From: Parasedimentitalea maritima
GTDB taxonomy: Bacteria; Pseudomonadota; Alphaproteobacteria; Rhodobacterales; Rhodobacteraceae
Assembly (NCBI RefSeq): GCF_005771405.1
Contig: NZ_VAUA01000002.1
Location: 372,001 to 436,000, forward strand
Direction of reading: 5' to 3'
DNA length: 64,000 nucleotides
The position numbers and the translations under genes are program-made. Below the pieces are notes generated by a model, which was not told the origin of the DNA, made no database searches, and saw only the letters and a program-made list of their open reading frames with translations. This document shows positions 30,302 through 60,727 of this stretch, in pieces (the stretch's first letter is position 1; each line of letters begins with the position of its first letter).

Positions 30302-30315
30302 GTCTCTGCCCTCCC

Positions 30316-31314: not shown

Positions 31315-31325
31315 CGTGCTCTCCC

Positions 31326-32846
31326 TCAGCCCGTCAATTCTTGGGCATCCAGGCCCGAGGCCAGATGCATAATGTTTTCTTCAGTAATCATGTCGCCCTC
31401 GACCACCCCGCCGATGCGCCCCTCGCGGACCACCAGCACCCGGTCGCTGACCCCGATTAGCTCGGGCAGTTCAGACGAGATCACCACAATGCCCACTCCA
31501 CTGCGGGCGAGATCGCGCAGGATGCGGTGGATTTCAGCCTTAGCGCCGACGTCAACACCGCGCGTGGGTTCATCCAGAAAGATAAGATTAGGGTTCACCG
31601 ACAGCATCTTGGCAATTGCGACCTTTTGCTGATTGCCACCCGACAGTGACGACACTGGGTCTGATAACTGACCGCATTTCAGGTTCAGCTTGTTGCCCAG
31701 TCGTTCGGCCTGTCCGTCCTCTAATTCGCGATTGATCAGTCCCAACGGGCTAGCCACTTGGTCCAGTTTCAGGGCGGACACATTGTTAGAGATCGGCATA
31801 TCCAAAAAGATACCGTCGCCTTTGCGGTCTTCGGACAGGTAGACCATGCCAGCGGCAATGCTGTCTTGATAGTGTTTCAGATCAAGCGGCTCGCCATTCA
31901 AGTAAACATCACCGGAAACATCACCATCCAACCGGCAAATGCCTTTGACGATCTCGCTGCGCCCCGAGCCGATCAACCCGGCAATGCCGAGGATCTCACC
32001 CTTTTTCAACTGAAACGAGACATCGCTGAATCGTTTGTTATCCGTCAGCCCCTGCACATCTAGGATGATCTCCTGAGACCTCTCCGCAAGCGCCTGTTTC
32101 TCCGGATACAGGTTCTCGATCACCCGCCCCACCATGGCGTTGACCACATCCGCAGGTTCAATCTCGGCCACATCACGCGTGGTGATATACTGACCATCGC
32201 GAAATACCGTTACCCGATCACAATTGTCAAAAATCTCGACCATGCGGTGTGAAATGTAAATGATTGCGATACCGCTGTCGGCCAGCCGCCGCATGATACC
32301 AAACAGCACCTGCGCCTCTTTCTCAGTCAGCGCCGCCGTGGGCTCATCAAGGATCAAGACCTTACAATCCAGCGTTAACGCCTTGGCGATCTCAACTAGT
32401 TGCTGGTTCGAAATCGACAGGTCCCGCACCAAAACAGAGGGATCAATATCGCTGAGCTGTCGAAACACATCGCGTGCCTTGGCCTCAATCCCTTTGTAAT
32501 CCATCAAGAACGATCGGCTAATATTGGTGGTCGACATGAATATATTTTCAGCTACAGAAACATCCGGGCACAGGGCAATCTCTTGATGCACGAAGCCGAT
32601 ACCCAGCTTCTGCGCCTTGGTCGGAGAGCTGATCCGTACAGGTTTTCCATCCCAGATGATCTCACCGCTGTTAGGCTTCAAAATGCCGTCGATGACATTC
32701 ATCAGGGTGGACTTCCCTGCCCCATTTTCACCTGCCAATGCATGGATTTCACCGCGCCGCAGTTCGAAATCAACACCCCGAAGGGCGCGAATGGCACCAA
32801 AGGACTTGCTGACATTCGAAATTCTGAGGATCACGTTGTCTGGCAT
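31326..32846 (-). CDS. Sugar/polyol ABC transporter ATPase, double domain (RbsA/XylG type)
   Basis: 506 residues with two fused nucleotide-binding domains. The first has Walker [10 protein letters not shown], a modified signature region around [16 protein letters not shown], and Walker [12 protein letters not shown]. The second has GLIGSGRSE in place of Walker A, signature [15 protein letters not shown] and [12 protein letters not shown]. This asymmetry is normal for ribose-type ATPases. Powers uptake with the permease and binding protein on either side. Confidence 0.93.
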
Positions 32847-32929
32847 GGGCGGAATTCAGTCCATTTAAATTTCAGAATGTGATGGGCCGCAATTGGCAGA
32901 CGGCCCATCAAGAATATTTTGGTCAACAA

Positions 32930-33949
32930 TCAGCTGGGATCGCGACCATCCATGTAGACATTCAAATCAAAGCTATCTGCATTCTCTTTGGTGATGACGG
33001 AGAAACCGTTGTCAACAAAAGGAATTTGCATCGGGTTATATCCTGATACCTTGTAGTCGTTGAACGGATCAAAGACTTCGGAATGTGCCGCCAGGAATGT
33101 GGACATAAAGCCCATGAACCCCTGCATGGCCTGGTTCGGATTCAGCGCCATGTGGATGTTGCCTGCCTTGATATGCTCCAGCGTGGTTGGAGTAATATCT
33201 GCATGCATCACCAAAACCTCGGCTTTGGCTTCCAGAATGGCGGCAACTGCACCTTCGGCCGAACCTGCCTCGGGGATCCACAACGCGCCCAGATTTGGGT
33301 TGGCCTGCAAGATAGATGCAGTCGCGCGGTAGGCAGCGGTGCTGTCCTGATTGGTAGCCTGACGTCCCACCAACTTCATGTTGGGATAGTGCTCTTCCAT
33401 ATAGGACAGCAATGCGGTGACGCGCAGATCGTGGTTGGACTGACCTGGGTTCTCCAACACCGCAAATTCAGCACTGTCACCAATCTGGCTTACGATCTCT
33501 TCAGCAGCAAACTTGGCCTCAGCCAGGTTATCCGACGTGATGTAGGCGGTGCGCTTTGACTTGGGCGAATCCGCCGCAAAGGTTGCCACTTCGGTGCCAC
33601 TGTCGATTGCACGATCGATTGGCTCAATAAACGGGTCCGACTGCATCGGATGCACCAGAATGCCAGCCGGCTGTTTGACCATATCCTGTTCAAACGACGC
33701 GATCTGTTTGGTGATGTCATAGTCCGGAGTACCCGAGAACACGGTCTCACAGCCAAAGGCCTCAGCGGCCTGTTTGAACCCCTGGTAGACCGGAACCCAA
33801 TAAGGGTGCCCCGAGACCATGACGTTCATGATATATGTCTCTCCCGGTTCACAGCGCAGTCCGCCTTCGGCCTGTGCCGAGGAAACGGAAATAACCGAGG
33901 CCGTCATGGCGAGAGACGCCAGAATTCCAGTAACTTTATGCTTCATCAT
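32930..33949 (-). CDS. Sugar/polyol ABC transporter substrate-binding protein
   Basis: 339 residues from the ATG at 33949, chosen because GGAGGAG ends four nt before it; an upstream reading to 33991 lacks a site. The signal peptide contains MTASVISVSSAQA with cleavage before EGG. The mature protein is a periplasmic-binding-protein type I (ribose/LsrB-like): MVSGHPYWVPVYQGFKQAAE at the N-terminus, TFAADSP, ENPGQSNHDLR, and LWIPEAGSAEGAVAAI. It delivers the ligand to the RbsC/RbsA-type pair. The LsrB residues for autoinducer-2 are not all matched (see rejected ideas), so a polyol or sugar is more likely. First gene of the ten-gene run. Confidence 0.9.
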   Translation of the reverse strand: MMKHKVTGILASLAMTASVISVSSAQAEGGLRCEPGETYIMNVMVSGHPYWVPVYQGFKQAAEAFGCETVFSGTPDYDITKQIASFEQDMVKQPAGILVHPMQSDPFIEPIDRAIDSGTEVATFAADSPKSKRTAYITSDNLAEAKFAAEEIVSQIGDSAEFAVLENPGQSNHDLRVTALLSYMEEHYPNMKLVGRQATNQDSTAAYRATASILQANPNLGALWIPEAGSAEGAVAAILEAKAEVLVMHADITPTTLEHIKAGNIHMALNPNQAMQGFMGFMSTFLAAHSEVFDPFNDYKVSGYNPMQIPFVDNGFSVITKENADSFDLNVYMDGRDPS

Positions 33950-33994
33950 CTTACTCCTCCCTAGAGCATCTGAATTGAAGATCCTTTTCACGAT

Positions 33995-34739: not shown

Positions 34740-35789
34740 TTATCTGTCCCAGATCAGTGTTTGGTTGCCGCCCAGTTTAGAAAAGGACAAAGGCCGACGT
34801 GGGGCGGCGAAATCTTCGGCCATGGGGTCCGATGTTAACGTCAGATAGGCCTCCAGCCACGCCAAATGATGTTTGCCGAGCTCCGCGCTACCATCGAAGA
34901 ATGACTGCACCTGCCCTGTCATTGCCTCAGTCTGTGCGCCATCTTCTAGATCGGACAGAGCAAAATGTACTGCCCGTTTTAGGGCTTGATCACATTGATC
35001 GGCTATTGGTGTACCTTGTTGTTCCAGCAACAAAACTGAGGTCACTAAGGGGGCCAGCGCGTAAAGTTGATAATGCAACGCGAATTTTCCGCGAGTCATT
35101 TCTTGGGGCAGGCTTCCATCCGGATTGGCAGAACAGAGCACGTATGTCGTCGACCAAATCGCCCAGGAACGCATGACTATGTCATTTCTCAACTCTGCAG
35201 TTGCTGTTGCGGCAAGCCCAGCCCAAGCCCGTAAATTCCCCGAAGCAGCCCCCTTAGGAGCCTGTTCCCAAAACTTCATTTGCTCGCCGACACGACGGGA
35301 AAGCCAGACGCCAACTGTCTCCAATCCCTGTGCGTCGGTGGCAAATTGCTCCGCTTGACCTGCGACGATCGCAAGACCGGCCAACCGGGCACCGATAGTC
35401 AACTGAGCAGTTTGGGTGCTCAGATCAGACAACGCATCTGCTTCGGCCCAGACGGCGAGCTGCCGGATAAGGCAATCGGCTTGATCGGGGCGTTGGCTCA
35501 TCTCAGATTTCAACAGTGTCTCAAGCCCTTCGGCAAGATCGCGCAGAAAATCATCCAGTGGTTTTAGCGAGATCTCAGCTTTCGCCTGCGCGTCTTTGTT
35601 CAGCGTCGCGCGGCTGGCGTCACTGCCTTCATAACGGCTTTGGACTGACAGGCTTTGTATGGCTGGTGGCGCCGGGGCACAAATCGATGTGTCTTGAGCC
35701 GCAGCTGCGCCTGCCCCAGATAATACGGCAAAGGATAGACCTATGAAAAGCGCCCCTGTCTCAAACCCTTTGAGTGCGTTACTTCCCAT
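34740..35789 (-). CDS. algL: AlgL-like periplasmic protein with degenerate alginate-lyase active site
   Basis: 349 residues, signal peptide ending GAGAAAAQ. The body follows alginate lyase AlgL colinearly: SRYEGSDASRATLN (Pseudomonas: SKYEGSDSARATLN), then WAGLAATATAELRNDIV, LPQEMTRGKFALHYQLYAL (LPNELKRRQRALAYHNYAL), and HLAWLEAYLTL near the end. The central NNHxYW motif carrying catalytic residues reads GNLRAW here, so the histidine is lost. The NHTGK stretch holding another histidine is also not matched. AlgL in alginate producers clears stray polymer and supports the periplasmic complex; here a structural rather than lytic role is likely (inference). It overlaps the TPR gene by 11 nt and ends the operon. 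Confidence 0.72.
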   Translation of the reverse strand: MGSNALKGFETGALFIGLSFAVLSGAGAAAAQDTSICAPAPPAIQSLSVQSRYEGSDASRATLNKDAQAKAEISLKPLDDFLRDLAEGLETLLKSEMSQRPDQADCLIRQLAVWAEADALSDLSTQTAQLTIGARLAGLAIVAGQAEQFATDAQGLETVGVWLSRRVGEQMKFWEQAPKGAASGNLRAWAGLAATATAELRNDIVMRSWAIWSTTYVLCSANPDGSLPQEMTRGKFALHYQLYALAPLVTSVLLLEQQGTPIADQCDQALKRAVHFALSDLEDGAQTEAMTGQVQSFFDGSAELGKHHLAWLEAYLTLTSDPMAEDFAAPRRPLSFSKLGGNQTLIWDR

Positions 35790-38550
35790 GAGCAGCCCCT
35801 AACAACTGGGCAAGTTCAGCGGCACGCGGATGACTTAGATTTTCGGCGCGTGCCAGCCAATCCAGTGCAACACCGATGTTACTTTGGGTACCAAGGCCAA
35901 AGCCCAGGGCAAAGCCCAGCTCGACCATGGCTTCATCATACCCGCCTTCGGCAGCCTTTTGTAACCACTGTGTAGACTGGCGCAGATCTTCGGGCGTATG
36001 TGCACGGTCTCGCAAATGCATCGCGTACTCGAATCGCGCTCTGTTGTCGCCAGCATTGGCCGCGTTACGCAATACAGCTGCCATATCGCGGCGCTGATCA
36101 ATCTGTGCACGCACATCTTCATGCGCAGTGCGATAACTGGACATCACCCAGACCAGTTCATCACCCTGAGCCTCTTCCAAAACGGCCAACAGATGGCTCG
36201 CCGCCGTCTGCGCATCAAAGCCCGGCAAATCAGGGTTTCCGGTCAAACGGTAAAGGCGCAAATTGACATTGGGCTCGCGCTCGGTCAGGTTGCGGGCCGC
36301 GACACCCTGCATATCAGGCGCAGAACCCGCATCAAACAGTCTGACCTGACTGTCGACCAGCTTCAATTTCGACAACAAGTGCCCGCCGTCAAAATCCAGT
36401 ATCACGTTGCGCCAATGATAGACCATTTCCGGGTCCTGGCGAATGGCATAGGCATCGCCCATTTCATCGGCGTCTTTGTTTTCACAGCCCATCAAAGATG
36501 CCGCGCGGTCAAAATAGTCATCCACCCGGTTTGCCGGCAGAAACGGAATAGCAAAGATCAGCCCTAGAAAATCGCCACGCTCTTCGATCACATCCTTGAA
36601 TTCATTATATATAACAAATGCACTGGCGGCGTAGTCTTCTGGGCTGGTGCTTTTCGCCAACAGCCGTGACTTCAACCGAATTGAGGCCCCTTCACCGCGG
36701 TTCCCGGCGATGGTCAACATCTTGATGATGTCTTTTGCCACATCAGGTTCGCGCGCTTGATCCTCAAGTAAAGCAACCGACAAATCCAAGGCCGACGTCA
36801 CACCATTGTTCAAATATACTCTGCGGAAAAACTCGATCGCCAAAGCCCGCTCTGCTGGCGTTCTGGACAGCTCCATTTCCATGCGAACAAAGGTTTCCAA
36901 CGCTTTATCAGATGGCGAAATGCGCTTGGCCCAAAGTCGCAGCGCCGCCTCTGACGTCAGTGGGCTTGACTGCAACAGTTGCGCCAGCTCTGCCCGTGCC
37001 TGTGTGCGCCCTTGCAAGGCTTGCGTTTGAATCCGTGCCAGCAATTCAGGGGATCGAAACGGGCTCAGTGTCAAAATGTCGGTGGCCGACGCTTGCACCG
37101 CCGCTTGCCCGGTTGCGGCATAGTTGCGGGCCCACAGATCGGCGGCGTCTTTATGTGGCGCATCATTCAACTGGCAACGATACAAACCTTCCAGAACCTG
37201 CATGGAACTGGCCATGCCGAAGCGCGACACCGTATCAAGCAAAAGGTTTTCCGCCCGATTGATACGCACAGGATCATCACGATAGCGGATCAGAAAACGT
37301 GCCAGCATTTGCATGCCCGTCTCGTCGCCACGGGTGACCGCAACCTCAAGCAGGTCCATAGCCTCAGCCTCACCAGCCCAGCGACCTTTGCGGGCAATCA
37401 CCTCTTCGGCGAGATCCGTGAAAACAAACCCCGGAGCCTCTGGCATCGCGGACAGTTCGCGAAGATACTGCAGGCGAACGCTGTCTTCATTGACAACGAC
37501 ATCATTCTTACGCACCCCAAGGTCAAAATAGGGGATCATAGAGTTTTGGACCCGCCGGCGGTCTTGACTTTGGTTGAAGCCCAAAATGTCTTCGATTTCT
37601 TGCGCTGTGATCACGCCGCTGGCCAGAAGCTGACTGGTTTGGCGTTCATCAGGCGACAGGCCCAGTTGAGCAGCACGTTGCAGATAGGTACGCATTTCGT
37701 CCAGATCTTTGCGATCCGCGTCGGCGTTCAAATGGTATTCCACAACGCGCCACGCAGCCTTTACCCCGCCCATATCTGCGGCAAACTTGCGCCACGCATG
37801 TGCCATATCGGGATTGGCTACCACAAGATCACCCTTCAGATACTCCTGCGCAATGCGTTCAGCACGCTTGCAAACACTCGGGGTCAGTTCACCCAGCAAT
37901 CCACCAAAGGCCAGCGTGACCGTCAAATCCAACGGTGCGTCCCAACCTTCGAGCATTTCACCGCGTATTTGCATGCGGGCGATCTCAGTCAAAGCGCGGG
38001 CATTGCCACCAAAGGCTGCCTCACGCAGCATTTCCTGGGCAAAAGGAAGGTCAGTGGGCACCAGAATCCCTTCGCGATAGTAGCGCGCCAGTACAAGTTG
38101 CTGATTGTTTGATAGCTCGTCAGACCGGACACGCAGCTGCCCGATCAGATTAATGCTGCGCAATTCTTCAAGGCGTCTGGCCTTAACATGCAAAGCCACA
38201 CGAGCAAACTCTTCACTCACCCCAGCGAATGAATCGTCCAACTGAGCGCGGCGAGTGATTAATGCGTTGATAAATTCGAACCAACGATCCGCGTCCTGTC
38301 GTTGCAGACGATGAATGTCACGGACCAGAAATTTCAGACGCAACTCATCGGTCAAAACCAGATCGCCCAGTCCATGCTCAGTGTGAAACTCTGCCTCACC
38401 AGCCGCGGGGGCATTGCACAAATCGCGTGACGAAATGCTGGGCGGCAAAAAATCGATCGGAAGGGGATTGGCCAAGGCGCCTAATGGCAACAGGATGCCA
38501 AGTATCCCTAAACTCAGTCCTATCTCCAGACCTGCAAGTTTACGCAGCAT
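35779..38550 (-). CDS. Large Sel1/TPR-repeat periplasmic protein in the AlgK position
   Basis: 923 residues with a signal-like start (SLGILGILLPLGALA) and many 30-40 residue helical repeats of Sel1/TPR type, clearest at GNARALTEIARMQIRGEM near residue 190 and AAEGGYDEAMVELGFALGFG near the C-terminus. In alginate clusters the Sel1/TPR lipoprotein AlgK (about 475 residues) tethers the outer-membrane porin and periplasmic enzymes. This protein is almost twice as long and shows no lipobox, so assignment as AlgK rests on architecture and place only. Its ATG overlaps the AlgX-like stop, after GAGGAGG. It is the likely scaffold of the periplasmic complex. Confidence 0.7.
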   Translation of the reverse strand: MLRKLAGLEIGLSLGILGILLPLGALANPLPIDFLPPSISSRDLCNAPAAGEAEFHTEHGLGDLVLTDELRLKFLVRDIHRLQRQDADRWFEFINALITRRAQLDDSFAGVSEEFARVALHVKARRLEELRSINLIGQLRVRSDELSNNQQLVLARYYREGILVPTDLPFAQEMLREAAFGGNARALTEIARMQIRGEMLEGWDAPLDLTVTLAFGGLLGELTPSVCKRAERIAQEYLKGDLVVANPDMAHAWRKFAADMGGVKAAWRVVEYHLNADADRKDLDEMRTYLQRAAQLGLSPDERQTSQLLASGVITAQEIEDILGFNQSQDRRRVQNSMIPYFDLGVRKNDVVVNEDSVRLQYLRELSAMPEAPGFVFTDLAEEVIARKGRWAGEAEAMDLLEVAVTRGDETGMQMLARFLIRYRDDPVRINRAENLLLDTVSRFGMASSMQVLEGLYRCQLNDAPHKDAADLWARNYAATGQAAVQASATDILTLSPFRSPELLARIQTQALQGRTQARAELAQLLQSSPLTSEAALRLWAKRISPSDKALETFVRMEMELSRTPAERALAIEFFRRVYLNNGVTSALDLSVALLEDQAREPDVAKDIIKMLTIAGNRGEGASIRLKSRLLAKSTSPEDYAASAFVIYNEFKDVIEERGDFLGLIFAIPFLPANRVDDYFDRAASLMGCENKDADEMGDAYAIRQDPEMVYHWRNVILDFDGGHLLSKLKLVDSQVRLFDAGSAPDMQGVAARNLTEREPNVNLRLYRLTGNPDLPGFDAQTAASHLLAVLEEAQGDELVWVMSSYRTAHEDVRAQIDQRRDMAAVLRNAANAGDNRARFEYAMHLRDRAHTPEDLRQSTQWLQKAAEGGYDEAMVELGFALGFGLGTQSNIGVALDWLARAENLSHPRAAELAQLLGAAHGK

Positions 38551-39884
38551 CAGTATGCCTCCTCTTGCTGACAGGCGGTTAGACTGGCGGCAGGGCCAAA
38601 GGAACCACCTCCCAATTGGACGTCCACATGAGATGCCCCCTCAGGCCACAGCCCTGACACCGGCATGTAGAACCGCCCGGTCAGAACCTGATCAGGAGTG
38701 CGGTAGACTGTTCGGGCACGAACACTCTTGTTCCGGGCGGCAAAAATAAAGCGAGCCGCTTGTACCTGAACACCATCATTATCGAAGAACAAAGTGTGGT
38801 GTTTGGCTGGATCAAGGCCGCTCAGATCCGCCTGAAAAACCTTGCGGCCTTTATCAAACCGCAAAGGTAAGACAATCTCGCAGCTCGGTCCGGCTGCTGT
38901 AATCAACTCCCGCAGGGGTTGCTCTCCAAATTCACCAGAGTTTTTCCAAATCGGCTGTTCCCAAATTAGAAATGACGGCCTGTTGGCCTGAAACTGTTGT
39001 GAAGTCAGATAGGCGGTCATCGCCGCCAGGGAGCCACCTTTGGCAAGGCTGTAGTGACCAGCGGACAGGCCGGTGGCCTCTTGCAAATGATGCGCAAAGC
39101 CCAATGTCGATCCACCAGTCATCTCTGAACTGACCACTGCAACTTCAATGGGCGCAACCGAGTTGAACAGATCCTGCGGGGCCGCCCCTTGGCGCATCAG
39201 AACTTGATCAAATATCAAACCAGGCAGGTCTTTTTCGCAATGCTCTTGCAAATCAAGGCGCCTGTCTGAGTGCATAGCTGCTTTACCACTAAGCCCGCTG
39301 CGAAACGCCGTTTGCGGCAATGCAGCATACCCGGGCGATCCTGCAACCATTTCCGCCGCAGCCCGCACCATGGTACGCACACCATGCGAGTTCAGCCGTG
39401 GGTCAGGTCCAAAAAATACCGGGGCATCCATAGCAGCGCGCGCCAGGATATGACGGACATTTGGAGCAGCCACCCCATAGTGGTTCAGGCGCTGAATGTT
39501 CTCATCATAGACCGTAGCAGCAATATCAATGTCATAGCCCAAATCAACTGCGGCCCAGGGCAGGTTTTGGGGTTGTCCCAGGGCCTTAGTTGGCGTTGCC
39601 AGATAGATTAGCGTTGTTCCCTGTGCTGCGAGAATGTCAGACAGTTCTGCAAGGTCTTGGGCAATTTCTTCGGTGATCTCATGTGACATCATCAGGTCAG
39701 GAGACACGCTGTAGAACATGCCCTGCGATCCTTCCACACTCGGGCTGGTTCCCGAATTCATCAGCCCAGAACACGCATATTCAGAGCTTTGCGCGGCCAG
39801 AGGTGCACCAAATAGTGAAAGTAACAACGCAGCGCACTGAACCCGTGCGTTACATTTGAAAAAATTGACCATGTTGCCCGTCAT
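38550..39884 (-). CDS. algX: AlgX-like SGNH-fold protein lacking the acetyltransferase catalytic residues
   Basis: 444 residues with signal peptide (QCAALLLSLFGAPLAAQ). It follows AlgX: LATPTKAL (VYQPTRGL in Pseudomonas), FFGPDPRLNSHGVRTM (YYFKGDHHWTPHGARR), VAVVSSEMTGG (IALVGTSNSGP), LTSQQFQANRPSFLIWEQPIW (MTSEEFHKNPPKILIWEFATH). AlgX O-acetylates mannuronate with a Ser-His-Asp triad. By this alignment the Asp of DxH is kept, but the His is Arg, and the Ser of GTS is Glu. No algI, algJ or algF is present to supply acetyl groups. The C-terminal polymer-binding part is present. The ATG at 39884 has AGAGG seven nt upstream. Confidence 0.78.
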   Translation of the reverse strand: MTGNMVNFFKCNARVQCAALLLSLFGAPLAAQSSEYACSGLMNSGTSPSVEGSQGMFYSVSPDLMMSHEITEEIAQDLAELSDILAAQGTTLIYLATPTKALGQPQNLPWAAVDLGYDIDIAATVYDENIQRLNHYGVAAPNVRHILARAAMDAPVFFGPDPRLNSHGVRTMVRAAAEMVAGSPGYAALPQTAFRSGLSGKAAMHSDRRLDLQEHCEKDLPGLIFDQVLMRQGAAPQDLFNSVAPIEVAVVSSEMTGGSTLGFAHHLQEATGLSAGHYSLAKGGSLAAMTAYLTSQQFQANRPSFLIWEQPIWKNSGEFGEQPLRELITAAGPSCEIVLPLRFDKGRKVFQADLSGLDPAKHHTLFFDNDGVQVQAARFIFAARNKSVRARTVYRTPDQVLTGRFYMPVSGLWPEGASHVDVQLGGGSFGPAASLTACQQEEAY

Positions 39885-39917
39885 AAGCTAGCCTCTGCTG
39901 CCCTGTTATTCTTTAAG

Positions 39918-40676
39918 CTATTCATTAGCTGCGTATGTCTTGTCCATCAGTGCCACCAGATTTTGAGCTGACGTCATGATACCCAGATGCGATGACGTCT
40001 GCGCACGTTGCAAATAGGATCTCGCCCAATCTTGCTGTTCTTTAGTGAGGTTAACTTGCTCCAAAAGAGCCACCGCCAAGCGCAACTCAACCCTGCCGTC
40101 ACCATTGCGTTGGCTTTGTTCAAGGATTTTTTCTCTTGTACTATCACTGAGCTCACCGAACAGCCTGCCCTTACCATTGAATTCAATGACCGCATCCAAG
40201 GCCAGTGTATTTCCGGCCCAAGCATACGGATAGAGCACCTGAATATACTTTCGAAGGCGGTCGCGTGGCTCTAATGCTGGATCAAGACGCTTCATCGCCT
40301 TTATCATGTCCGGCAACGTCCAGACCCGCCCAGTGCCAACCGCAATTGCGCTGTAATAGGCCACGTCTGACGGCGTGTTCACCGTCGCGCCGGCGGAGAT
40401 CAGGCGACGCGCATAGGTCTGAGCCGCTAGTCCGTAGCCGGCCTCGCTCAGTTTTATCAGATTGGCGTCACTTACAGGTTGATGTGCATGCATCTGTTGA
40501 CGCGCGGCGACCAGCGATGGCGACAGCCCCTTCATGCTGAGAGGATCAGGTGTAATCGTGACGGTGATCCGCGAGGCCTTGGTATCATCTGCAAACGGCA
40601 GCGGTATGTTTTGCGCGACTGCTGCCGTGGCGCAAAACACCCAAAGGCATAGAAAAAGGCGTAAAATCATGGTCAT
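39918..40676 (-). CDS. Periplasmic helical-repeat protein of the alginate-type operon, unknown
   Basis: 252 residues from the ATG at 40676, which overlaps the AlgG-like stop as ATGA; an ATG at 40685 is also possible. Signal peptide MTMILRLFLCLWVFCATAAVAQ is followed by a short beta-like part (SRITVTITPDPL) and then alpha-helical repeats resembling Sel1/TPR (YGLAAQTYARRLISAG, YPYAWAGNTLALDAVIEF, RVELRLAVALLEQ, WARSYLQRAQ). No Pseudomonas alg gene matches. Given its place between algG-like and algX-like genes, it is probably another scaffold part of the periplasmic complex. Confidence 0.7.
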   Translation of the reverse strand: MTMILRLFLCLWVFCATAAVAQNIPLPFADDTKASRITVTITPDPLSMKGLSPSLVAARQQMHAHQPVSDANLIKLSEAGYGLAAQTYARRLISAGATVNTPSDVAYYSAIAVGTGRVWTLPDMIKAMKRLDPALEPRDRLRKYIQVLYPYAWAGNTLALDAVIEFNGKGRLFGELSDSTREKILEQSQRNGDGRVELRLAVALLEQVNLTKEQQDWARSYLQRAQTSSHLGIMTSAQNLVALMDKTYAANE

Positions 40677-42220
40677 GACTCGCAATCGGCCAAGCCAGCC
40701 TGCACTGGGTATTGAGTACCACCGGCTGACATCAACATCGGAGTCTCGCCGCTCAAATTGGTGGCGACGGCTCTGTTTTGCAGCGCAATATCACCGTCAA
40801 TCAAACGTGGGAGTTGATCTGACAAGTCGTTTCCTACCAGCATAAGCTGCCCGCCTGTGGCCGTAGAGAGCCCTGCTTTGTTCTGGCGCAGAATATTGTC
40901 TGAAACATAAGTTACCGCATCTCTGGGTTGATCTGAAACCCAAATCCCAGCGCTACGGCTTCCACTGATTGTATTTTTCTGAACCGTAGTTTGGCTACTG
41001 GAACGAATATCAACGCCCTTTTGGCGGCTGTTCAGAATCACATTGTGGCGTACAACAGCGCAATTTGAGCTGGAAATTTTGATTGCACCGCCGCTGCGCC
41101 GCCAAATCACATTCCCTGACACCAGGACGTGATTGCTTTGGCCCTGCACCAAAATGCCAGAGCGGTCACCTTGTAGCAGAACATTCCCCTGGAGAGTGCT
41201 GTGGTCGGACCCGCGCAAAACCCGTATCGCATTTGTCGGACCCGAACCAAAAAACAGGTTACCCTGTACATTGGTGCCCAACGAGGTCGACAGCAGCAAA
41301 GCATTGTTACGCATATTATAAAACTGGCTACCAGAGACCTCACCACCAGATATCCCAGTCAATGACACCGTCTGCACATCATCAAAATAAGTATCTGTGA
41401 TCCACGTTTCCCCGACCGTTGGCAAAAGCGGATGAGCCACAACCGACAGGCCGGAAAACTTTGGTGACTTGCCAAAGCCAAGCCCCAGAAAGACAGCCTT
41501 GTCAACTTGCAGTGCACCACCACCACCGATGGTGATAAAGGGTACAAAATCCCCGCTGCTTGGAGAGGCTTCCCCAACAACGCTAACGCGACTGCCGGCT
41601 ATCTCCACGCGGCCAAAGCTGATAATAAACGCCCCATCCCCACGGCTAAGTTGCAGATGGTCCTCTGGGCCCAATTGCAACACCGTGTCATCCCAGAGAA
41701 TGATCGGAACACGCAAAGTGTTATTCCTTGGCTGCATTTGGGCTTGTGGAAAAGTTTGTGCCAGGCTGGCGCGGAGGTGGTCCAGCGTCACTAACCCGGA
41801 CCGAAATGTCAGCGCCTGGGTTCTTTCACCTGGATGTGCGTTCAAGACATCAAGATTATCTTGCCCGCCGTGCACCTGCGTCAGCAGCGCCAGAGCTGTG
41901 CGAAAATCTTCAACGCTTGTGCTGGCCAACTGGGTCGGAACATCAGTGGTTTTTGCAGCAGTCACAGGGAGTTGGTACGATGACGGCAAGTCTGGCGTCA
42001 GGCCCGACAATCCAGTGCGATGCATCAACTGACCTAAAGGCAAGCGCAAAGTAGCACTGTCCTGAACCAAAAAATCGGACAGCTCGGTCAGTTGCTGATC
42101 TAATTTCATCAAATCAGAGTTGGGCCCAGCCCAAGAGGGGCTGGGCACCAGAAAGGAGACACAGAACATCAACGCAACCCAAAGAGCCCGGATCTGTTTT
42201 TGTACCTGCCTGTCAGCCAT
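40673..42220 (-). CDS. algG: AlgG-like parallel beta-helix protein lacking the epimerase DPHD motif
   Basis: 515 residues with signal peptide (LMFCVSFLVPSPSWA). From about 160 on it aligns by eye with mannuronan C5-epimerase AlgG: FGRVEIAGSRV (FGRLLIRNSQV), VPFITIGGGGALQV (RPFIVATNGGELLI), TWITDTYFDDV (AWIINSHFEDL), followed by repeating beta-helix rungs with GN and SG turns. The catalytic segment YGIDPHDRSRRLTIAGN of AlgG corresponds to NALLLSTSLGTNVQGN, with no aspartate or histidine. Epimerisation of mannuronate to guluronate is therefore not expected. It may still line the secretion path, as AlgG does structurally. Overlaps algA-like by eight nt. Confidence 0.75.
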   Translation of the reverse strand: MADRQVQKQIRALWVALMFCVSFLVPSPSWAGPNSDLMKLDQQLTELSDFLVQDSATLRLPLGQLMHRTGLSGLTPDLPSSYQLPVTAAKTTDVPTQLASTSVEDFRTALALLTQVHGGQDNLDVLNAHPGERTQALTFRSGLVTLDHLRASLAQTFPQAQMQPRNNTLRVPIILWDDTVLQLGPEDHLQLSRGDGAFIISFGRVEIAGSRVSVVGEASPSSGDFVPFITIGGGGALQVDKAVFLGLGFGKSPKFSGLSVVAHPLLPTVGETWITDTYFDDVQTVSLTGISGGEVSGSQFYNMRNNALLLSTSLGTNVQGNLFFGSGPTNAIRVLRGSDHSTLQGNVLLQGDRSGILVQGQSNHVLVSGNVIWRRSGGAIKISSSNCAVVRHNVILNSRQKGVDIRSSSQTTVQKNTISGSRSAGIWVSDQPRDAVTYVSDNILRQNKAGLSTATGGQLMLVGNDLSDQLPRLIDGDIALQNRAVATNLSGETPMLMSAGGTQYPVQAGLADCES

Positions 42221-43634
42221 TGATCACAATAGGCTCGTTTTGCTTGCCTAAGTCCGCATTTTCCAGCGTCACAAACAGGAGTTCCGCCGTGGTATCGCCA
42301 CTGTTAAGGATGCGAACACTACCGGTCTCATCTGCATAGATACGCCCGCCCTCAACCGCTGCTTTGCTCCAGTCTGGGCCCGTGGCATGAACGGTTCCCT
42401 GAACCACGATTACCTGTTGACTGCGCGAACCACGGTCGAGCAAAATCGTTCGCCCCACTTCGATTTCGGCGGTTCCCAAGTGAAAGCGGTCTGTTTCGAC
42501 TATCTTTTCCAGCTGATCTTGTTTGTGGAACGGCACCATGGCCGGAATGGAATTGGCGTGAACTTCTGCCTCAGAGCGCTTGCTGGCTTTGAGCAGATCA
42601 ACAACCGCTTTGACGTTCTGGGTTTCATCCATTTTTGCCACAAGCAATGCGTCTGGCGTGTCGATGACAATGATATCGCTCAGACCGACCACACTGACCA
42701 AACGAGTATCCGTAGAGACCATCGTATTTATCGAATTCAGCGCGACAACATCGCCTTGCAGGACATTGCCATCTTTGTCGGGCTGCGAAATATTGTACAT
42801 AGCCAACCAGCTGCCAACGTCATTCCACGACACATCCAATGGCGCCAGCGCGATGCGGTCTGTTTGTTCAAACACTACACTTTCGGTGGGCTGGGCTGCG
42901 GATTCGGCGAATTCTGCCTCGTCGAGATACAAGGCTTCGGGCGTATCAGAACCAAATTCCACAGACGCACTCACATGGCCCGCTGTCGTTGGATCAAACT
43001 TCTGGTATTCTTCGATGATAGTTTTGGCCGAGAACATCGACAGTCCTGACGCCCAGTAGGCCGACTTACTGTCAATCAACGCCTGAGCTTCCTCCTGCGG
43101 AGGTTTTTCGACAAAGCCGCCAACCTGCCGAACTGTGTCAAACCCTGCCAGCGGTCCGGCATCGGTGATGTAACCAAACCCGGTTTCCGCATAACGCGGC
43201 GGGATACCGAAGGTGATGATATGACCAGCCTGCGCCGCTGGAATGCAGGCCTCGATTGTTTCCGTCAAACGACCTTCAATCACGTGATCCGCAGGGATCA
43301 CGACAAATAAGGCGTCTGGATCTTTGCGCGCAATAGCATGGGCAGCAGCGAGGACAGCTGGACCGGTGTTGCGTCCAACTGGTTCGCAAATTATCTGCGC
43401 CTTGGACTGAATTTCACGCAGTTGTTTCACCACGGTACCACGATGAATGCCACCGGTGACAATCACAGGATCCTGATAAACTGGCCCACGATGGCGCTGC
43501 ACAGCGACCTGAAAAAAGGTCATTGACTCAGGGCCGCTGATTTTTTGGAACTGCTTGGGGCTTTGAGTTCGTGACAAAGGCCAAAGGCGGGTGCCTTTTC
43601 CGCCGCAGATGATCAGTGGATAAATCGTGGTCAT
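42213..43634 (-). CDS. algA: Mannose-1-phosphate guanylyltransferase (AlgA-like, isomerase half degenerate)
   Basis: 473 residues from the ATG at 43634 (GAGAGG eight nt upstream). The pyrophosphorylase motif GGKGTRLWPLSRTQSPKQF (about 9-27), PADHVIEG, ETGFGYI and FVEKPP are intact, so it should make GDP-mannose from mannose 1-phosphate and GTP. The C-terminal cupin domain of AlgA is a mannose-6-phosphate isomerase with the metal motif QMHHHRAEHW; the aligned stretch here is LLDRGSRSQQVIVVQGT, without histidines. The isomerase step must come from another gene. Start overlaps nothing; it is 23 nt after the alg44-like stop. Confidence 0.85.
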   Translation of the reverse strand: MTTIYPLIICGGKGTRLWPLSRTQSPKQFQKISGPESMTFFQVAVQRHRGPVYQDPVIVTGGIHRGTVVKQLREIQSKAQIICEPVGRNTGPAVLAAAHAIARKDPDALFVVIPADHVIEGRLTETIEACIPAAQAGHIITFGIPPRYAETGFGYITDAGPLAGFDTVRQVGGFVEKPPQEEAQALIDSKSAYWASGLSMFSAKTIIEEYQKFDPTTAGHVSASVEFGSDTPEALYLDEAEFAESAAQPTESVVFEQTDRIALAPLDVSWNDVGSWLAMYNISQPDKDGNVLQGDVVALNSINTMVSTDTRLVSVVGLSDIIVIDTPDALLVAKMDETQNVKAVVDLLKASKRSEAEVHANSIPAMVPFHKQDQLEKIVETDRFHLGTAEIEVGRTILLDRGSRSQQVIVVQGTVHATGPDWSKAAVEGGRIYADETGSVRILNSGDTTAELLFVTLENADLGKQNEPIVING

Positions 43635-43657
43635 TGTAATTGCCTCTCGCTTCAATC

Positions 43658-44869
43658 TCAAAGGCCCAACAGGCCCTTCGACAGCCGCAATCTTGCGGAT
43701 TTGCCGATATCCTTTGTTGTCAAAGCACCCTCTTCAGAAACAAGTTCGACAGGGACAAATACGTCACCACGCAGGCTCGCTGCTGTGGTTGCCTCACTGG
43801 CGATAACCTCGACAGGAATACTTCTCCCGTCATTGAGATCCATATGAACCTGGTCTCCGTTCATCGCCCGATTCAGCCCTTCTATGCTCATCAGAGTCTG
43901 TGCTCTGATTAATGAAGTATTAACATAAATTGTCAGAATTAAGTCCGTTTGAAGGACAGTTGTGCCATCTGAAATTCCTTTTGTAACAACCACTTCACAG
44001 TCACATGGCATCGTGAAGTTCAATACATTGCCAGTATTGGCGTTAACCGAATACAGCACCTCGCCCTTGGCGGCGTTAGGATTTAGGTAAGAAATTTGCC
44101 CGGCGGCTGTAGCGCGCATTTTTTGACCGGCTCGCTCCACAAACACCGGGTGCATTTCGTAACTCGTTGAGTAGCGTTGAAGCAGCACGCTGGCTGCTAC
44201 AACGATAAGCAAAACCGACAGCGCAGCCACACCAAGTGAGCGCACCCGGTTCATGAGTGAATGCCCCCTCGCCTCACCTTTTGGCTTTTTTGGTGCGGTC
44301 GGGCCAGTATAGCTGATCATACCGTCGACGGATACAAAATCCCCGCCAATATGGCTGTTCACTATATAGCGTAGCTGTGGCAGGTGCCCGCCGGTGGGAT
44401 CTGTAAACTGAAAGACTGATTTGCCCTGAACGTCTTCACTAATCACCATAACTTCGGGATGCAGCGAGAGTACAAAGCTCTCAAATGCAAAGTTGATAAT
44501 TGCGATATGCCGCGTGCCATTCCCGAGCATCCCCCCTTCCGTCGCCTGTGCATGGATCTGCATAAGCGAGATACTGTCACCGGTATATCGTTGCCCGGCG
44601 ACCGTCACCGAATACGGAATTTTCAACAGTGGATGCTCATCATCGTAGCCAAAATCTACCGGTAAGGGCTGGCTCTGTGTTGTGCCTGACAGAGACTGAG
44701 GTTGGCGATGAACTGGCTGGGGCGCAGGTTCCGGGGGACTGGCTTCGCCCGGGTTATAGTTCTTACTCATACTGGCAGTCCGCTGGACAAGAGGACGTCG
44801 GGCTTCGGCCCGTGGTTCAGGTGTTTCAAGCTTGTCAGAGGGTGTTAGTCGAAAAAGGTTGTTGTCCAT
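43658..44869 (-). CDS. alg44: Alg44-like polymerase partner with degenerate PilZ domain
   Basis: 403 residues. A proline-rich N-terminal tail (about 1-70) precedes a PilZ-like domain (about 75-175), one membrane helix (SLGVAALSVLLIVVAASVLL, near 212-232) and a periplasmic HlyD-like part with the PCDC cysteine motif that Alg44 also has. In Pseudomonas Alg44 binds c-di-GMP through RxxxR and DxSxxG to switch on Alg8. The corresponding places read EHPLLKIPY and GDSISLMQI, so the nucleotide-binding residues are mostly gone. It probably still pairs with the Alg8-like polymerase but may not need c-di-GMP. Confidence 0.78.
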   Translation of the reverse strand: MDNNLFRLTPSDKLETPEPRAEARRPLVQRTASMSKNYNPGEASPPEPAPQPVHRQPQSLSGTTQSQPLPVDFGYDDEHPLLKIPYSVTVAGQRYTGDSISLMQIHAQATEGGMLGNGTRHIAIINFAFESFVLSLHPEVMVISEDVQGKSVFQFTDPTGGHLPQLRYIVNSHIGGDFVSVDGMISYTGPTAPKKPKGEARGHSLMNRVRSLGVAALSVLLIVVAASVLLQRYSTSYEMHPVFVERAGQKMRATAAGQISYLNPNAAKGEVLYSVNANTGNVLNFTMPCDCEVVVTKGISDGTTVLQTDLILTIYVNTSLIRAQTLMSIEGLNRAMNGDQVHMDLNDGRSIPVEVIASEATTAASLRGDVFVPVELVSEEGALTTKDIGKSARLRLSKGLLGL

Positions 44870-44890
44870 GAGGGTACCTCGTCGTGCCTA

Positions 44891-46369
44891 TTAGAAAGTG
44901 TTCAGAAACATTACGGCGATGGTCAGCCATGACAGGGCAAGCGCGTGGTGAGCAAAGGATTCCCAAGCTTTGACACGGTCCTGCAGGGCCATAGCCTTGC
45001 CCGAACCGCCGCTGCCTTGCCGCGTCCATTTCTGTTTATCCAGTCGAAAGAGAACAAAAGTTTTGATGATGGCCCCAGCAACCTGCCCAAAATACAAGAT
45101 CGGCGGATGAGTGACGGGGAACCATTCTTTGTTAAACAGGGCGATAAAGATACAAAACATATAGCGGGTCGCCATAACCCAAGCGATGTAGAGTGGGATC
45201 ACCGAAAGTGAAACTGTTGCCGCTGCGACAATAACTGAAATCGGGCCAACAAGTGTGGTCCACATCGAAACCCGCTGATCAAGGATCGACCACCAGGTAA
45301 AAAATCCGATTTTGCGCGGATCTTCGCGTAGTGCCCGACCATTGGTGCGCATCATATTGCCAAACCATCGGATCATCAGCGTTTTGGCACTGTCATAAAA
45401 CGTGTCACGCGGTTGGTCTTCCGCAGATTGTGACTGAATATCGGGCATATAGGCCATCTGATAGCCATTACGAAGCAGCCAATACCAAGTGGATTTGTCA
45501 TCACCGGTTAGGAAATTCACCCGACCAAGGCGCCAATGGTCAAGAAAGTCAAAACCAACACCTTTGATAAAGCCTGGATCTGTCGCGAGGGAAGCGCGAA
45601 ACACTGACATACGCCCCGTCAGCGTCAGCACTCGGTTGCCTAATCCCATTGAACACATCATCACCTGACGCTGGTTGAAGCGCAGTGTGAACCAGTCTTT
45701 GAACAGGTTCTGTTTGTCGATGATTGCAGCCTCATCGGTGGTCAGCGCCCCCATGCGCGGATCCGAAAAGAAGGGAGCCGCTTGGGCCCAGATATCAACC
45801 GGAACCACGGTATCCCCATCGACAAACACCATGATGTCATCTTTGGTCGGGGCCTTATCGGCCAAAATGCGCAAAGCCTTTTCCATGGCGTCACGTTTGC
45901 CGCTGGATTTGATTCTATCGATAACCAGTTCGACGTTGCTCATATCAAACTTCGAAGACGCATAAAGCTGCTGGATCAGACGCTCATCTTTACCATCCAC
46001 AACTGAGGCGACAATCGTCGCGCCATCGCGAGCTTTTGACGCTGCCTCAAACAAACGACGATAGACCATGATCGTCACTTCGTTATCGACCATATAGCTG
46101 GTCAGCATAAAGTAGCAGTGCGATTTAACGTTACTGGCCCAAAAGCGCCTGTGGTGACGCCGCTTCCAGATTGGATAGGCGATGCGGCGAAAAAAAACGG
46201 CCCGACCAAAATTGGTCACCGCCCAAGTATAGCGCCAAGTCCCCAAAAATCCGACGATGAACACCGCATTAGATGCGTGATGCAACTCCCCCAGGAAACC
46301 CTGGGGGACCACGGTCACCAACAGATAGATGACCGCAAAATACGCCGTATGAGTAAGGACCATTGTCAT
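44891..46369 (-). CDS. alg8: Alg8-like processive glycosyltransferase (GT2, polymannuronate synthase type)
   Basis: 492 residues: N-terminal helices, a cytoplasmic GT2 domain (about 80-330) and C-terminal helices. Motifs: FVDGDTVVP (metal-binding DxD), LTGDDKSTWYWLLRNGYQM (acceptor GDD; Pseudomonas LTGDDKSSWFWLLKNGYEM), RWFGNMMRTNGRALREDPRK, WWSILDQRVSMWT and FFRLDKQKWTRQ-like FRLDKQKWTRQ. The match to Alg8 extends over the whole length, which separates it from cellulose and hyaluronan synthases. It should polymerise GDP-mannuronate and extrude the chain to the periplasm. The active-site motifs are intact, unlike in the downstream tailoring proteins. Seven nt after algD. Confidence 0.9.
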   Translation of the reverse strand: MTMVLTHTAYFAVIYLLVTVVPQGFLGELHHASNAVFIVGFLGTWRYTWAVTNFGRAVFFRRIAYPIWKRRHHRRFWASNVKSHCYFMLTSYMVDNEVTIMVYRRLFEAASKARDGATIVASVVDGKDERLIQQLYASSKFDMSNVELVIDRIKSSGKRDAMEKALRILADKAPTKDDIMVFVDGDTVVPVDIWAQAAPFFSDPRMGALTTDEAAIIDKQNLFKDWFTLRFNQRQVMMCSMGLGNRVLTLTGRMSVFRASLATDPGFIKGVGFDFLDHWRLGRVNFLTGDDKSTWYWLLRNGYQMAYMPDIQSQSAEDQPRDTFYDSAKTLMIRWFGNMMRTNGRALREDPRKIGFFTWWSILDQRVSMWTTLVGPISVIVAAATVSLSVIPLYIAWVMATRYMFCIFIALFNKEWFPVTHPPILYFGQVAGAIIKTFVLFRLDKQKWTRQGSGGSGKAMALQDRVKAWESFAHHALALSWLTIAVMFLNTF

Positions 46370-46376
46370 TGCAGTT

Positions 46377-47696
46377 TTACCAGCAAATGCCTTCGTAGTT
46401 CTCGTCTGACACCATATCGCGATGCAATCGGGTCAGGTCGACAACCGTCTGGGTTTTGGCCGCTTCTTTTAGCTTTTCAACGGTCTCGTTGTAGTAGTTC
46501 CCCACCAAAACCGCACCGGCATCATTGATTAGCTCATCAAGATCGCCGACCAGTCGGTTTTCAAGATTTGGGACGCTTTCATTGCCGCGCCCCGCACCAG
46601 GGGTACCGCTGTCATAGGCTTCTTTGACAAAGGGGTCGTATATATTGACCTCAATACCTTTGTTGATCAGGCGTGCCGCAAGGCTAACCAGAGGGCTTTC
46701 GCGCAGATCATCAGTACCTGGTTTAAAGCTGATACCGACAAAGCCAACTTTCTGGGCACCGCTCTTTTCAACCATGGCTTCTGCCTTGGCAATCTGAGCT
46801 TCGTTGGCCTCTAAGACTGCATTCAACAGATGCGCTGGCGTATCGTTCTGGCTGGCGAGGTGGCGCAACGCACGCACATCTTTCGGCAAGCAAGAACCAC
46901 CAAAGGCAAAGCCCGGGCGCATGAAATAGGGCGACATCGCCGCCTTTTTGTCACTGCACAGAATTTCCATGACGCTTTGACCGTCAATCCCGCAGGACTT
47001 GGCAATGTTACCGATTTCGTTGGCAAAGGTCACCTTCACCGCGCGCCACGTATTGGAAGTGTATTTCACCATTTCAGCGGTGCGAATATCAACTTTGTTG
47101 ACCGCACAGGGCATGTCTTTGTTCAGATCCGCCAGGATCTGGCCAGTCGGTTCATCCATAAAGCCAAAGACCACCAGGCCGGGGTCATAGCTGTCGGCAA
47201 TGGCAGTGCTTTCACGCAGGAATTCCGGGTAATAGCCGACTCCGAATCCCACTCCAGCCTTTTTGCCAGATGTCTGTTCCAAAACCGGAATACAGGCGCT
47301 TTCAGTGCTGCCCGGGACAATGGTCGAGCGGATAACGACCGAATGGTAGACATCTTTTTCACGTAGTGCTTTGCCAATGTCTTCGCAGACACTGGTTACG
47401 TACGATAGTCCTACAGATCCGTCAGCTGCTGAAGGTGTTCCTACACAGACAAAGGACATCTCCGTCTCGTGAACTGCTCTGCCAAAATCACTGGTTGCGC
47501 GCAACTTGCCTTTGGACACCATATCTCGGACAAGATCATCGATCCCTTCCTCAACAATGGGGGACATGCCCGCGTTGATTGCATCAATTTTACCCTGGTC
47601 TACATCAACTGCAATGACTTCATGACCATCCTGCGCAAGACACGCAGCGGACACGACGCCAACATAGCCAATGCCAAAGACACTGATCTTTGCCAT
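46377..47696 (-). CDS. algD: GDP-mannose 6-dehydrogenase (AlgD-like)
   Basis: 439 residues of the UDP-glucose/GDP-mannose dehydrogenase family: N-terminal NAD site SVFGIGYVGVVSAACLAQDG (about 5-24), a helical middle with FANEIGNIAKSCGIDG, the catalytic cysteine in FGGSCLPKDVRALRHLA, and a C-terminal nucleotide-binding part (VGFVGISFKPGTDDLRESP). The sequence around the cysteine and the adjacent GDP-mannose pyrophosphorylase point to GDP-mannose rather than UDP-glucose. It oxidises GDP-mannose to GDP-mannuronate, the committed step. First gene of the nine-gene operon, as algD is in Pseudomonas. A CtrA box lies about 100 nt upstream. Confidence 0.88.
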   Translation of the reverse strand: MAKISVFGIGYVGVVSAACLAQDGHEVIAVDVDQGKIDAINAGMSPIVEEGIDDLVRDMVSKGKLRATSDFGRAVHETEMSFVCVGTPSAADGSVGLSYVTSVCEDIGKALREKDVYHSVVIRSTIVPGSTESACIPVLEQTSGKKAGVGFGVGYYPEFLRESTAIADSYDPGLVVFGFMDEPTGQILADLNKDMPCAVNKVDIRTAEMVKYTSNTWRAVKVTFANEIGNIAKSCGIDGQSVMEILCSDKKAAMSPYFMRPGFAFGGSCLPKDVRALRHLASQNDTPAHLLNAVLEANEAQIAKAEAMVEKSGAQKVGFVGISFKPGTDDLRESPLVSLAARLINKGIEVNIYDPFVKEAYDSGTPGAGRGNESVPNLENRLVGDLDELINDAGAVLVGNYYNETVEKLKEAAKTQTVVDLTRLHRDMVSDENYEGICW

Positions 47697-47992: not shown

Positions 47993-48922
47993 ATGCAGGG
48001 AATGGCCCGGAATGCACTTTTTCTCAGCGTTTTCTTAACCGGCTGCACCGGTGCGATTCCCAATTCGACCAGCGGAAGCAACGAAGTGTTTACGCCTGGA
48101 AACGGCTATGAAAGGTTTTACAGTTCAGCCGACCACAACTTCCGATACGCCTTTGCTGAGCACCAGGCACCCACCCGCCGAGGCATCCGCAGCGAGCGGT
48201 TCGAACTGCGTGACGGTGATTGTGGTGGCAGTGACTGCGGCAATCCCCGCTACCGCACCGAAATTCAGATGCCGACCAAGTCTAACCCTGCCAACGTCGG
48301 TAAAGATATCTGGTATGGCTGGAGCTTTTTAAACTCCGGCGTACCCAGTTTTACACGCGAAGACTCATTGCGACTTGTCTTTGGTCAATGGGGCATGCCT
48401 AGTGGGGCAACACCTGCGATCCGGCTAATCCAATTGGGCATGGACGAAGGCAATTGGGCGGCCTGCCAAAACACCACCTGTGCCGGGTCAGCAATAAAAC
48501 ACGGCGACATTGTCGTGCAGCTCGCGGACATGAACCGTGCCTTTAGCTGGGGCAAAGACAAGAATGAAGGCTATGTATGCCGGTTGTTTGAGATGCAGGA
48601 TCAGCAGAACCGTTGGGTCGATCTGGTCATGAATACAAATTTTTCAGACAATGAAGACGGCTACCTGCGGATTTGGGTAAACGGCGAGCTACGGTGTAAT
48701 TATAGCGGCGCAATTGTCTCTCCCGACAGCTTGCTCAAGGGGCACAAACCAGGCCATCGCCGTGGCATTTTTTCCAGCTACACAGAACGGTGGACAAAAA
48801 CACATGGCGCAAAACCCAAGCCAACTCTGGTCGTGTATTATGACGAATTCGCAGTTGGGTCATCGCGCAGCCAGGTCGACCCAGCGTTGCGCGAGCAATC
48901 TAATAGGCCGGCAATCGACTAG
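47993..48922 (+). CDS. Lipoprotein polysaccharide lyase (PL14099-type, glucuronan/alginate lyase-like)
   Basis: 309 residues. The N-terminus SVFLTGC forms a lipobox (LTGC, Cys18), so the protein is a lipoprotein. The body has the jelly-roll pattern of the Polysacc_lyase family that includes glucuronan and alginate lyases (PL13/14/20 type): SERFELRDGDCG, YRTEIQM, KDIWYGWSFLNSG, LRLVFGQWG, RWVDLVMNTNFS and GYLRIWVNGEL near the C-terminus. It would cleave uronate polymers at the membrane surface. Divergent from algD with a shared regulatory gap, it may replace the inactive-looking AlgL in clearing or trimming the polymer (inference). Exact substrate is unknown. Confidence 0.75.
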   Translation: MQGMARNALFLSVFLTGCTGAIPNSTSGSNEVFTPGNGYERFYSSADHNFRYAFAEHQAPTRRGIRSERFELRDGDCGGSDCGNPRYRTEIQMPTKSNPANVGKDIWYGWSFLNSGVPSFTREDSLRLVFGQWGMPSGATPAIRLIQLGMDEGNWAACQNTTCAGSAIKHGDIVVQLADMNRAFSWGKDKNEGYVCRLFEMQDQQNRWVDLVMNTNFSDNEDGYLRIWVNGELRCNYSGAIVSPDSLLKGHKPGHRRGIFSSYTERWTKTHGAKPKPTLVVYYDEFAVGSSRSQVDPALREQSNRPAID

Positions 48923-52428: not shown

Positions 52429-52529
52429 TATGTCATCTCACTGAAAAACTGTTTCAATGGATGATACGGCGCGTCAGGTGTGGATCGGCGATCCCATTCG
52501 CATTGCGCCTGTCACAGTTGGATGCTGGC

Positions 52530-52545
52530 CTATCCGTTGGGATAG
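52530..52545. promoter_or_regulatory. CTATCC-N4-GGATAG palindrome, copy 1
   Basis: CTATCC GTTG GGATAG, perfect 6-bp arms, about 100 nt upstream of the chain-length gene and just past the stop of the LuxR-type response regulator. It belongs to a set of four similarly built sites in this locus. Confidence 0.6.
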
Positions 52546-52552
52546 CTTAAAC

Positions 52553-53167: not shown

Positions 53168-53252
53168 TACAAAACCTCATCAAAATATAGCTTCTATAGC
53201 CATCACTCTAAGAGCAAATGGTAGGGGGTAGGTATAAATTTAGGCCAGATTT

Positions 53253-53268
53253 CTATCCAAATGGATAA
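53253..53268. promoter_or_regulatory. TATCC-N4-GGATA palindrome, copy 2
   Basis: CTATCC AAAT GGATAA; the arms TATCC/GGATA are perfect. It lies in the 242-nt gap between the divergent response regulator and the fused glycosyltransferase, about 86 nt upstream of the response regulator start and 142 nt upstream of the other gene, so it could serve either promoter. Confidence 0.6.
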
Positions 53269-60724: not shown

Positions 60725-60727
60725 GCC

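Follow-up and report, generated by a model that had tools for sequence, protein, structure and literature searches.

A nine-gene operon of Parasedimentitalea maritima is homologous to the alginate operon, and its product is, on balance, probably a polymer resembling poly-beta-1,4-D-mannuronate, without O-acetyl groups and not epimerised by the operon's own AlgG. Such an unmodified polyuronate has so far not been reported from any wild bacterium. AlgG and AlgX, like the isomerase half of AlgA and the PilZ site of Alg44, lack residues needed in Pseudomonas, and algI, algJ and algF are missing, which counts in favour of an unmodified polymer. All nine genes are under purifying selection.

The operon lies on the minus strand of the window (the whole analysed stretch of 64,000 nucleotides), where nine overlapping or short-gapped open reading frames were confirmed at 34740-47696, encoding in order AlgD, Alg8, Alg44, AlgA, AlgG, a helical protein, AlgX, a Sel1 protein and AlgL (Table 1). 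The first-pass annotation had described such a row of minus-strand Alg-type genes with overlaps or short gaps, and reading frames, family matches and homology agree with it. In the HMM comparison that it had proposed, the Pfam models for AlgX (PF16822), AlgL (PF05426) and Sel1 repeats (PF08238) matched, and AlgG and AlgA gave matches below the cut-offs of NF038177 (45.7 bits, cut-off 700) and TIGR01479 (355.8, cut-off 372.95). Alg8 and Alg44 matched no alginate-specific Pfam or NCBIfam model and no PDB sequence at the limits used; they were assigned by homology and by position relative to canonical operons.

Table 1. Genes of the alginate-type operon and its divergent neighbour, in window coordinates
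Feature	Position	Strand	Basis
algD-like GDP-mannose 6-dehydrogenase, operon gene 1	46377..47696	-	1MFZ match, GGSC motif
alg8-like GT2 polymerase	44891..46369	-	DGD, GDDKS and RW(F/Y)GN motifs; tree
alg44-like co-polymerase, PilZ RxxxR replaced by [E/D]HP motif	43658..44869	-	aligned columns, motif counts
algA-like; guanylyltransferase half mostly intact (WASG for WNSG), isomerase half without QxHxHR	42213..43661	-	TIGR01479, motifs
algG-like beta-helix protein without DPHD epimerase motif	40673..42220	-	alignment and motif counts
secreted-type all-helical protein, probably Sel1/TPR-like	39918..40685	-	predicted model; weak fold match
algX-like SGNH and carbohydrate-binding protein; Ser269 to Glu, His176 to Arg, Asp174 kept	38550..39884	-	PF16822, 4knc match
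Sel1 repeat protein, 923 aa, presumed periplasmic scaffold	35779..38550	-	PF08238
algL-like PL5 protein; His202 to Leu in fixed NLRAW, Arg249 and Tyr256 kept	34740..35789	-	PF05426, alignment
polysaccharide-lyase-like gene, divergent from operon	47993..48922	+	PF14099; N-terminus resembles lipoprotein signal

Alg8 at 53% identity or more was found in 31 of the 394 genomes searched from the window's family; any match at E <=0.001 was found in 63 of them, those outside the 31 being at 38% identity or less. Related loci numbered 22 in a scan of genome contigs, and 14 plasmid records were obtained. By gene content the close loci split into clade A (n=23), to which the window belongs, without algI, algJ and algF, and clade B (n=23), with them: reading frames for AlgI, AlgJ and AlgF occur in 0/23 clade-A loci and in 23/23, 23/23 and 21/23 clade-B loci, respectively, and for the two clade-B loci without AlgF (L016, L022) the contig breaks off early. 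All nine genes are present as open reading frames in the 23 clade-A loci, which come from many genera of Rhodobacterales and include two plasmid copies. Among named relatives, Zongyanglinia huanghaiensis stands closest to the window (Alg8 99%).

Clade B (Rhodobacterales and some Rhizobium; for example plasmid plas1 of Loktanella salsilacus, L081, and Rhizobium sp. T1473, L135) resembles the window in its core genes and their order and in its helical and Sel1 proteins, and it too has lost the DPHD, QxHxHR, RxxxR and NNH motifs. It differs in having its own algI, algJ and algF, an AlgX with the catalytic triad, and, in 17 of its 23 loci, a gene of response-regulator type close to algD on its upstream side (e.g. 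L081 11714-12463); a relative of this gene is found in one clade-A locus (L009), about 5 kb away. Two genomes, G837 (L096/L097) and G988 (L089/L098), carry one locus of each clade, and in both the clade-B locus (L097, L098) has no algD or algA within the stretch. One locus, L101 (15991-20000), has a shorter Sel1 reading frame, and no AlgL was found there although the stretch continues.

Motif counts cover 23 clade-A, 23 clade-B and 9 canonical or near-canonical loci. They omit L017 (short contig), L025 to L028, L112 and L113 (outside both clades), and L089, L092 and L114, which come from the same genomes as L013, L015 and L009, respectively; L134 and L135, of clade-B type, were fetched later and also stand outside the counts, with the NLRAW of AlgL and the GTSxS of AlgX seen directly in L135. 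Some clade-B rows are missing because a contig or the stretch fetched stops short (AlgL 11, AlgX 2, AlgF 2), and the counts include near-identical pairs (L081 and L094; the window and L009). Residue replacements were checked both in alignment columns and by alignment-free motif counts. Misalignment was rejected as an explanation for the absent motifs, since the two approaches agree, barring a loose RxxxR pattern in Alg44 and two chance GTSxS matches that sit elsewhere in clade-A AlgX.

The first-pass annotation had called the precursor and polymerase motifs intact and had listed the catalytic residues of the isomerase, epimerase, acetyltransferase and lyase domains, as well as the c-di-GMP site, as replaced. 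The counts bear this out for the polymerase, the isomerase, the epimerase, the acetyltransferase and the c-di-GMP site; for the precursor and lyase residues it holds in part. AlgD matches the GDP-mannose dehydrogenase 1MFZ with 440 bits, versus 235.5 for the best UDP-glucose enzyme, and keeps the GGSC motif in 23/23 clade-A and 21/21 clade-B rows. A UDP-glucuronate polymer was rejected, because AlgD is far closer to GDP-mannose dehydrogenase. The DGD, GDDKS and RW(F/Y)GN motifs of Alg8 are kept in all 23 clade-A rows, and throughout both clades except for one fragmentary clade-B row. The departure among the precursor genes is in AlgA, where WASG stands for the canonical WNSG in 23/23 clade-A and 21/21 clade-B rows, with the loop otherwise kept; this change might alter sugar handling. 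The isomerase motif QxHxH of AlgA is found in 0/23 and 0/21 rows of the two clades and in 6/6 canonical rows, and its columns vary freely. Since the window's genome has two full-length GMP-PMI genes elsewhere (both with WNAG, and with QSHFHR or QSHHHR), the loss of this function from the operon's AlgA would be covered.

In Alg44, both arginines of the RQHAR motif are present in 7/7 canonical rows; R17 is kept in 1/23 clade-A and 0/23 clade-B rows and R21 in none of either clade, and in their place stands a conserved [E/D]H(P/A) motif (22/23 and 23/23). The loose RxxxR pattern, searched without alignment, occurs in 6/23 clade-A and 2/23 clade-B sequences, and we attribute these matches to chance, since the aligned positions hold residues other than arginine. 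The DPHD motif of AlgG, whose histidine is the probable proton abstractor according to passages of a 2015 review (PMC4444821), is found in 0/23 rows of each clade as against 8/8 canonical rows. The residues at these columns vary freely, as drift would give.

According to passages of PMC10641220 and PMC4148444, acetylation in P. aeruginosa requires AlgI, AlgJ, AlgF and AlgX, and in AlgX the residues D174, H176 and S269. This set is incomplete in clade A, where the three genes are absent and the Asp-His-Ser triad has lost its His and Ser, Asp174 being kept in the window's AlgX. Both His176 and, in the aligned column, Ser269 are found in 0/23 clade-A, 21/21 clade-B and 7/7 canonical rows. Column 176 of clade A holds Arg in 22/23 rows and Gln in one; column 269 holds Glu in 17/23, with 2 Gly, 2 Asp, 1 Ala and 1 Lys. 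Structure prediction, which the first-pass annotation had suggested as a check, gave for AlgX a model (pLDDT 83.6) that matches Pseudomonas AlgX (4knc) over both domains with a TMq of 0.72 and E 3.3e-25, so the two-domain fold is predicted to be kept. In L080 (22572-23765, a Tateyamaria omphalii plasmid), the first part of the AlgX frame contains in-frame stops and no gene is annotated. A genome-wide search for AlgI found none in 13 of the 18 clade-A genomes searched, the window's among them; among the remaining five, it lies in a clade-B locus in two, a 53-56% relative is present on another contig in two, and one has a weak 29% match.

AlgL has lost His202: NNH is found in 0/23 clade-A and 0/12 clade-B rows and in 8/8 canonical ones, and it is replaced by (G/N)NLR(A/G)W, of which NLR(A/G)W is present in 23/23 and 12/12. 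Arg249 and Tyr256, on the other hand, are kept in all 21 clade-A rows that cover them and in 12/12 clade-B rows, and near-invariant residues cluster round the pocket positions. The P. aeruginosa AlgL H202A variant is inactive in vitro and grows like the wild type, as stated in passages of PMC8829089. Given this behaviour and the retained Arg249 and Tyr256, AlgL should not be called dead; with these residues and the fixed NLRAW it may still be functional. Next to algD, a lyase-like PF14099 gene is present in 17/23 clade-A and 0/23 clade-B loci, several clade-B loci also having short upstream stretches. The first-pass annotation mentions neither this gene nor the absence of algI, algJ, algF and algE. 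Of the clade-A loci without it, L121 has 1.2 kb and L010 2.8 kb upstream, and L012, L013, L015 and L082 at least 5 kb. The activity of the PF14099 protein is uncertain, since no histidine is found among its near-invariant residues; against PDB sequences it gave a single weak, unrelated match at 0.13.

The helical protein occurs in clades A and B, with no match in canonical operons; its predicted model (pLDDT 84.9) is all-helical, and its top PDB fold match is a Sel1 protein at E 0.1, a weak assignment, with nothing at E <=0.001. Relatives of the Sel1 protein are found in 23/23 clade-A and 21/23 clade-B loci. The AlgE porin (PF13372) had no match in the window's genome; the same model matched 2/2 canonical control genomes and gave weak partial matches in 2/24 Rhodobacterales genomes. 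Recurrent flanking genes, checked by eye for an outer-membrane porin, included no recurrent porin-like family.

Between the window and L010 (Pseudophaeobacter leonis), dN/dS ranges from 0.034 to 0.191 over the nine genes (dS 0.50 to 1.58; for AlgA, a frame break in L010 enters into the value), with 0.043 for Alg8, 0.107 for AlgG, 0.128 for AlgX and 0.137 for AlgL; against L083 and L084, dS is saturated. Three genes of L010 itself (5626-14708) are broken across two frames, namely alg44, algA and the Sel1 gene, through draft error or decay.

Clade A forms one clade with an SH-aLRT of 100, placed inside clade B, in both the Alg8 tree (without L022 and L030), a phylogeny across Rhodobacterales that the first-pass annotation had proposed, and a three-gene tree (also without L009, L010, L020, L021 and L023). 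As monophyly of clade B was not rejected (AU p 0.116) and the three-gene tree was flagged for long branches meeting, this nesting is likely, not proven. The changes fall into three classes, namely those that look like drift (AlgG DPHD, AlgA isomerase), those that set a conserved new motif in both clades (AlgL, Alg44) and the change confined to clade A (AlgX). The losses therefore look staged, because clade B shares the AlgG, AlgA, Alg44 and AlgL changes yet keeps the AlgX triad and algI, algJ and algF. The first-pass annotation had all tailoring functions lost together; clade B contradicts this, and simultaneous loss was rejected. As far as gene content and motifs go, the loss of acetylation is the only one specific to the window's clade. 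That it was lost in clade A is the simpler reading, since AlgX persists there and the triad is intact in clade B and in the canonical rows; the argument from gene content alone is weakened by the nearest outgroup loci (L110, L025, L026), which are without algI in the fetched stretch.

We propose that AlgD would convert GDP-mannose, supplied by AlgA and/or the two GMP-PMI genes elsewhere, to GDP-mannuronate, and that Alg8-Alg44 would polymerise the latter independently of the classical c-di-GMP switch. AlgG, AlgX and the helical and Sel1 proteins would then act as a binding scaffold that steers the chain across the periplasm, AlgL and perhaps the PF14099 lipoprotein would clear or trim stray chains, and an outer-membrane exporter other than AlgE would release the polymer. 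Historically, the common ancestor of clades A and B would already have been without the epimerase, isomerase and c-di-GMP residues and still able to acetylate; the window's clade would then have lost algI, algJ and algF and the Ser-His pair of AlgX, and most of its members carry the lyase-like gene. The low dN/dS, the kept AlgX fold and the unity of clade A count for bare polymannuronate. The idea of a scaffold making an unmodified polyuronate, already voiced in the first-pass annotation, gains from the purifying selection and the AlgX fold; for AlgL, which keeps Tyr256 and Arg249, a role as scaffold only is unproven. Counting against bare polymannuronate are the WASG of AlgA in both clades, which possibly alters the sugar, the lack of AlgE in the window's genome, the interrupted AlgX of L080 and the AlgI-like proteins encoded elsewhere in 5/18 clade-A genomes; the unrejected monophyly of clade B and the long-branch warning count against the history proposed here.

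The replacements in AlgL and AlgX also count against bare polymannuronate, since they are fixed rather than drifting and a new activity is thus possible. It is conceivable, if unlikely, that AlgX, AlgL and possibly AlgG were re-specialised, the fixed new residues (Glu/Arg in AlgX, Leu-Arg in AlgL) marking a changed active site and a changed polymer. The invariance of NLR(A/G)W in every row of both clades, the near-invariant residues grouped at the pocket, the Arg and Glu that prevail in clade-A AlgX and the WASG of AlgA all speak for this. However, the DPHD columns of AlgG vary freely, as under drift, AlgD is still far nearer to GDP-mannose than to UDP-glucose dehydrogenases, and the partner genes of AlgX are gone.

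Bare polymannuronate would also not be the end product if enzymes encoded elsewhere, such as a secreted epimerase or other acetyltransferases, still modified the polymer. The AlgI-like proteins of 5/18 clade-A genomes, which in two cases belong to an additional locus of clade B, point that way; the window's genome, however, has no AlgI match, and in it the AlgG-family model (E <=0.001), which is not one for secreted AlgE-type epimerases, matches the operon's own AlgG only, so that we hold such modification to be quite improbable. The interrupted AlgX of L080 argues against AlgX being needed in that plasmid locus and, with the split frames of L010 (possibly a draft-assembly error), could indicate a decaying locus with no product. 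We give this very little credence, as dN/dS is low across the nine genes, all nine recur across many genera, in 23 loci that include plasmid copies, and the polymerase motifs are intact in every clade-A row.

Returning to bare polymannuronate as the preferred product, a wider reading can be put forward tentatively: both clades may produce mannuronan free of guluronate in nature, with acetyl groups in B and without them in A, by means of a periplasmic scaffold of former enzymes and a non-AlgE outer-membrane exporter. According to passages of the 2015 review (PMC4444821), every bacterium that produces alginate encodes AlgG, and no natural producer of mannuronan had been identified; if our reading is true, wild bacteria do make pure mannuronan. 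The two related clades would then offer the acetylated and the bare form for direct comparison, with G837 and G988 carrying both loci, the structural and catalytic roles of AlgG and AlgX could be separated, and a novel exporter would be implied.

Among known systems, the Pseudomonas-type gammaproteobacterial operon (L103 to L107) shares homologous AlgD, Alg8, Alg44, AlgA, AlgG, AlgX and AlgL with the window but has intact tailoring residues, algI, algJ and algF, and an AlgE porin in 2/2 searched. Bundalovic-Torma et al. 2020 (PMC7112194) described atypical alginate operons without transport or acetylation loci; lost catalytic residues, Rhodobacterales loci and a lyase-like neighbour are not mentioned in the passages of that paper compared here. 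A literature search, with subscription papers mostly outside it, found no paper describing a Rhodobacterales alginate operon by title or abstract. Rhizobium/Microvirga-type loci (L136, L110, L108) carry algD and an Alg8 relative of about 43 to 46% identity and differ from the window in keeping the AlgG DPHD and the PilZ RxxxR, with no algI detected in the fetched stretch. One of them, L136 (11832-27195, on a megaplasmid of Rhizobium sp. BG6), is a locus of a third kind, having DPHD and RQxxR and no algI match in the stretch.

Elsewhere in the window, a separate exopolysaccharide-like cluster (49688-63661) encodes a sugar transferase, an export protein, a flippase-like protein, several glycosyltransferases and a chain-length-like protein, and positions 21532-33991 hold genes for sugar/polyol uptake and oxidation, including an ABC transporter, an FGGY kinase, an aldolase, and GMC and DAO oxidoreductases.
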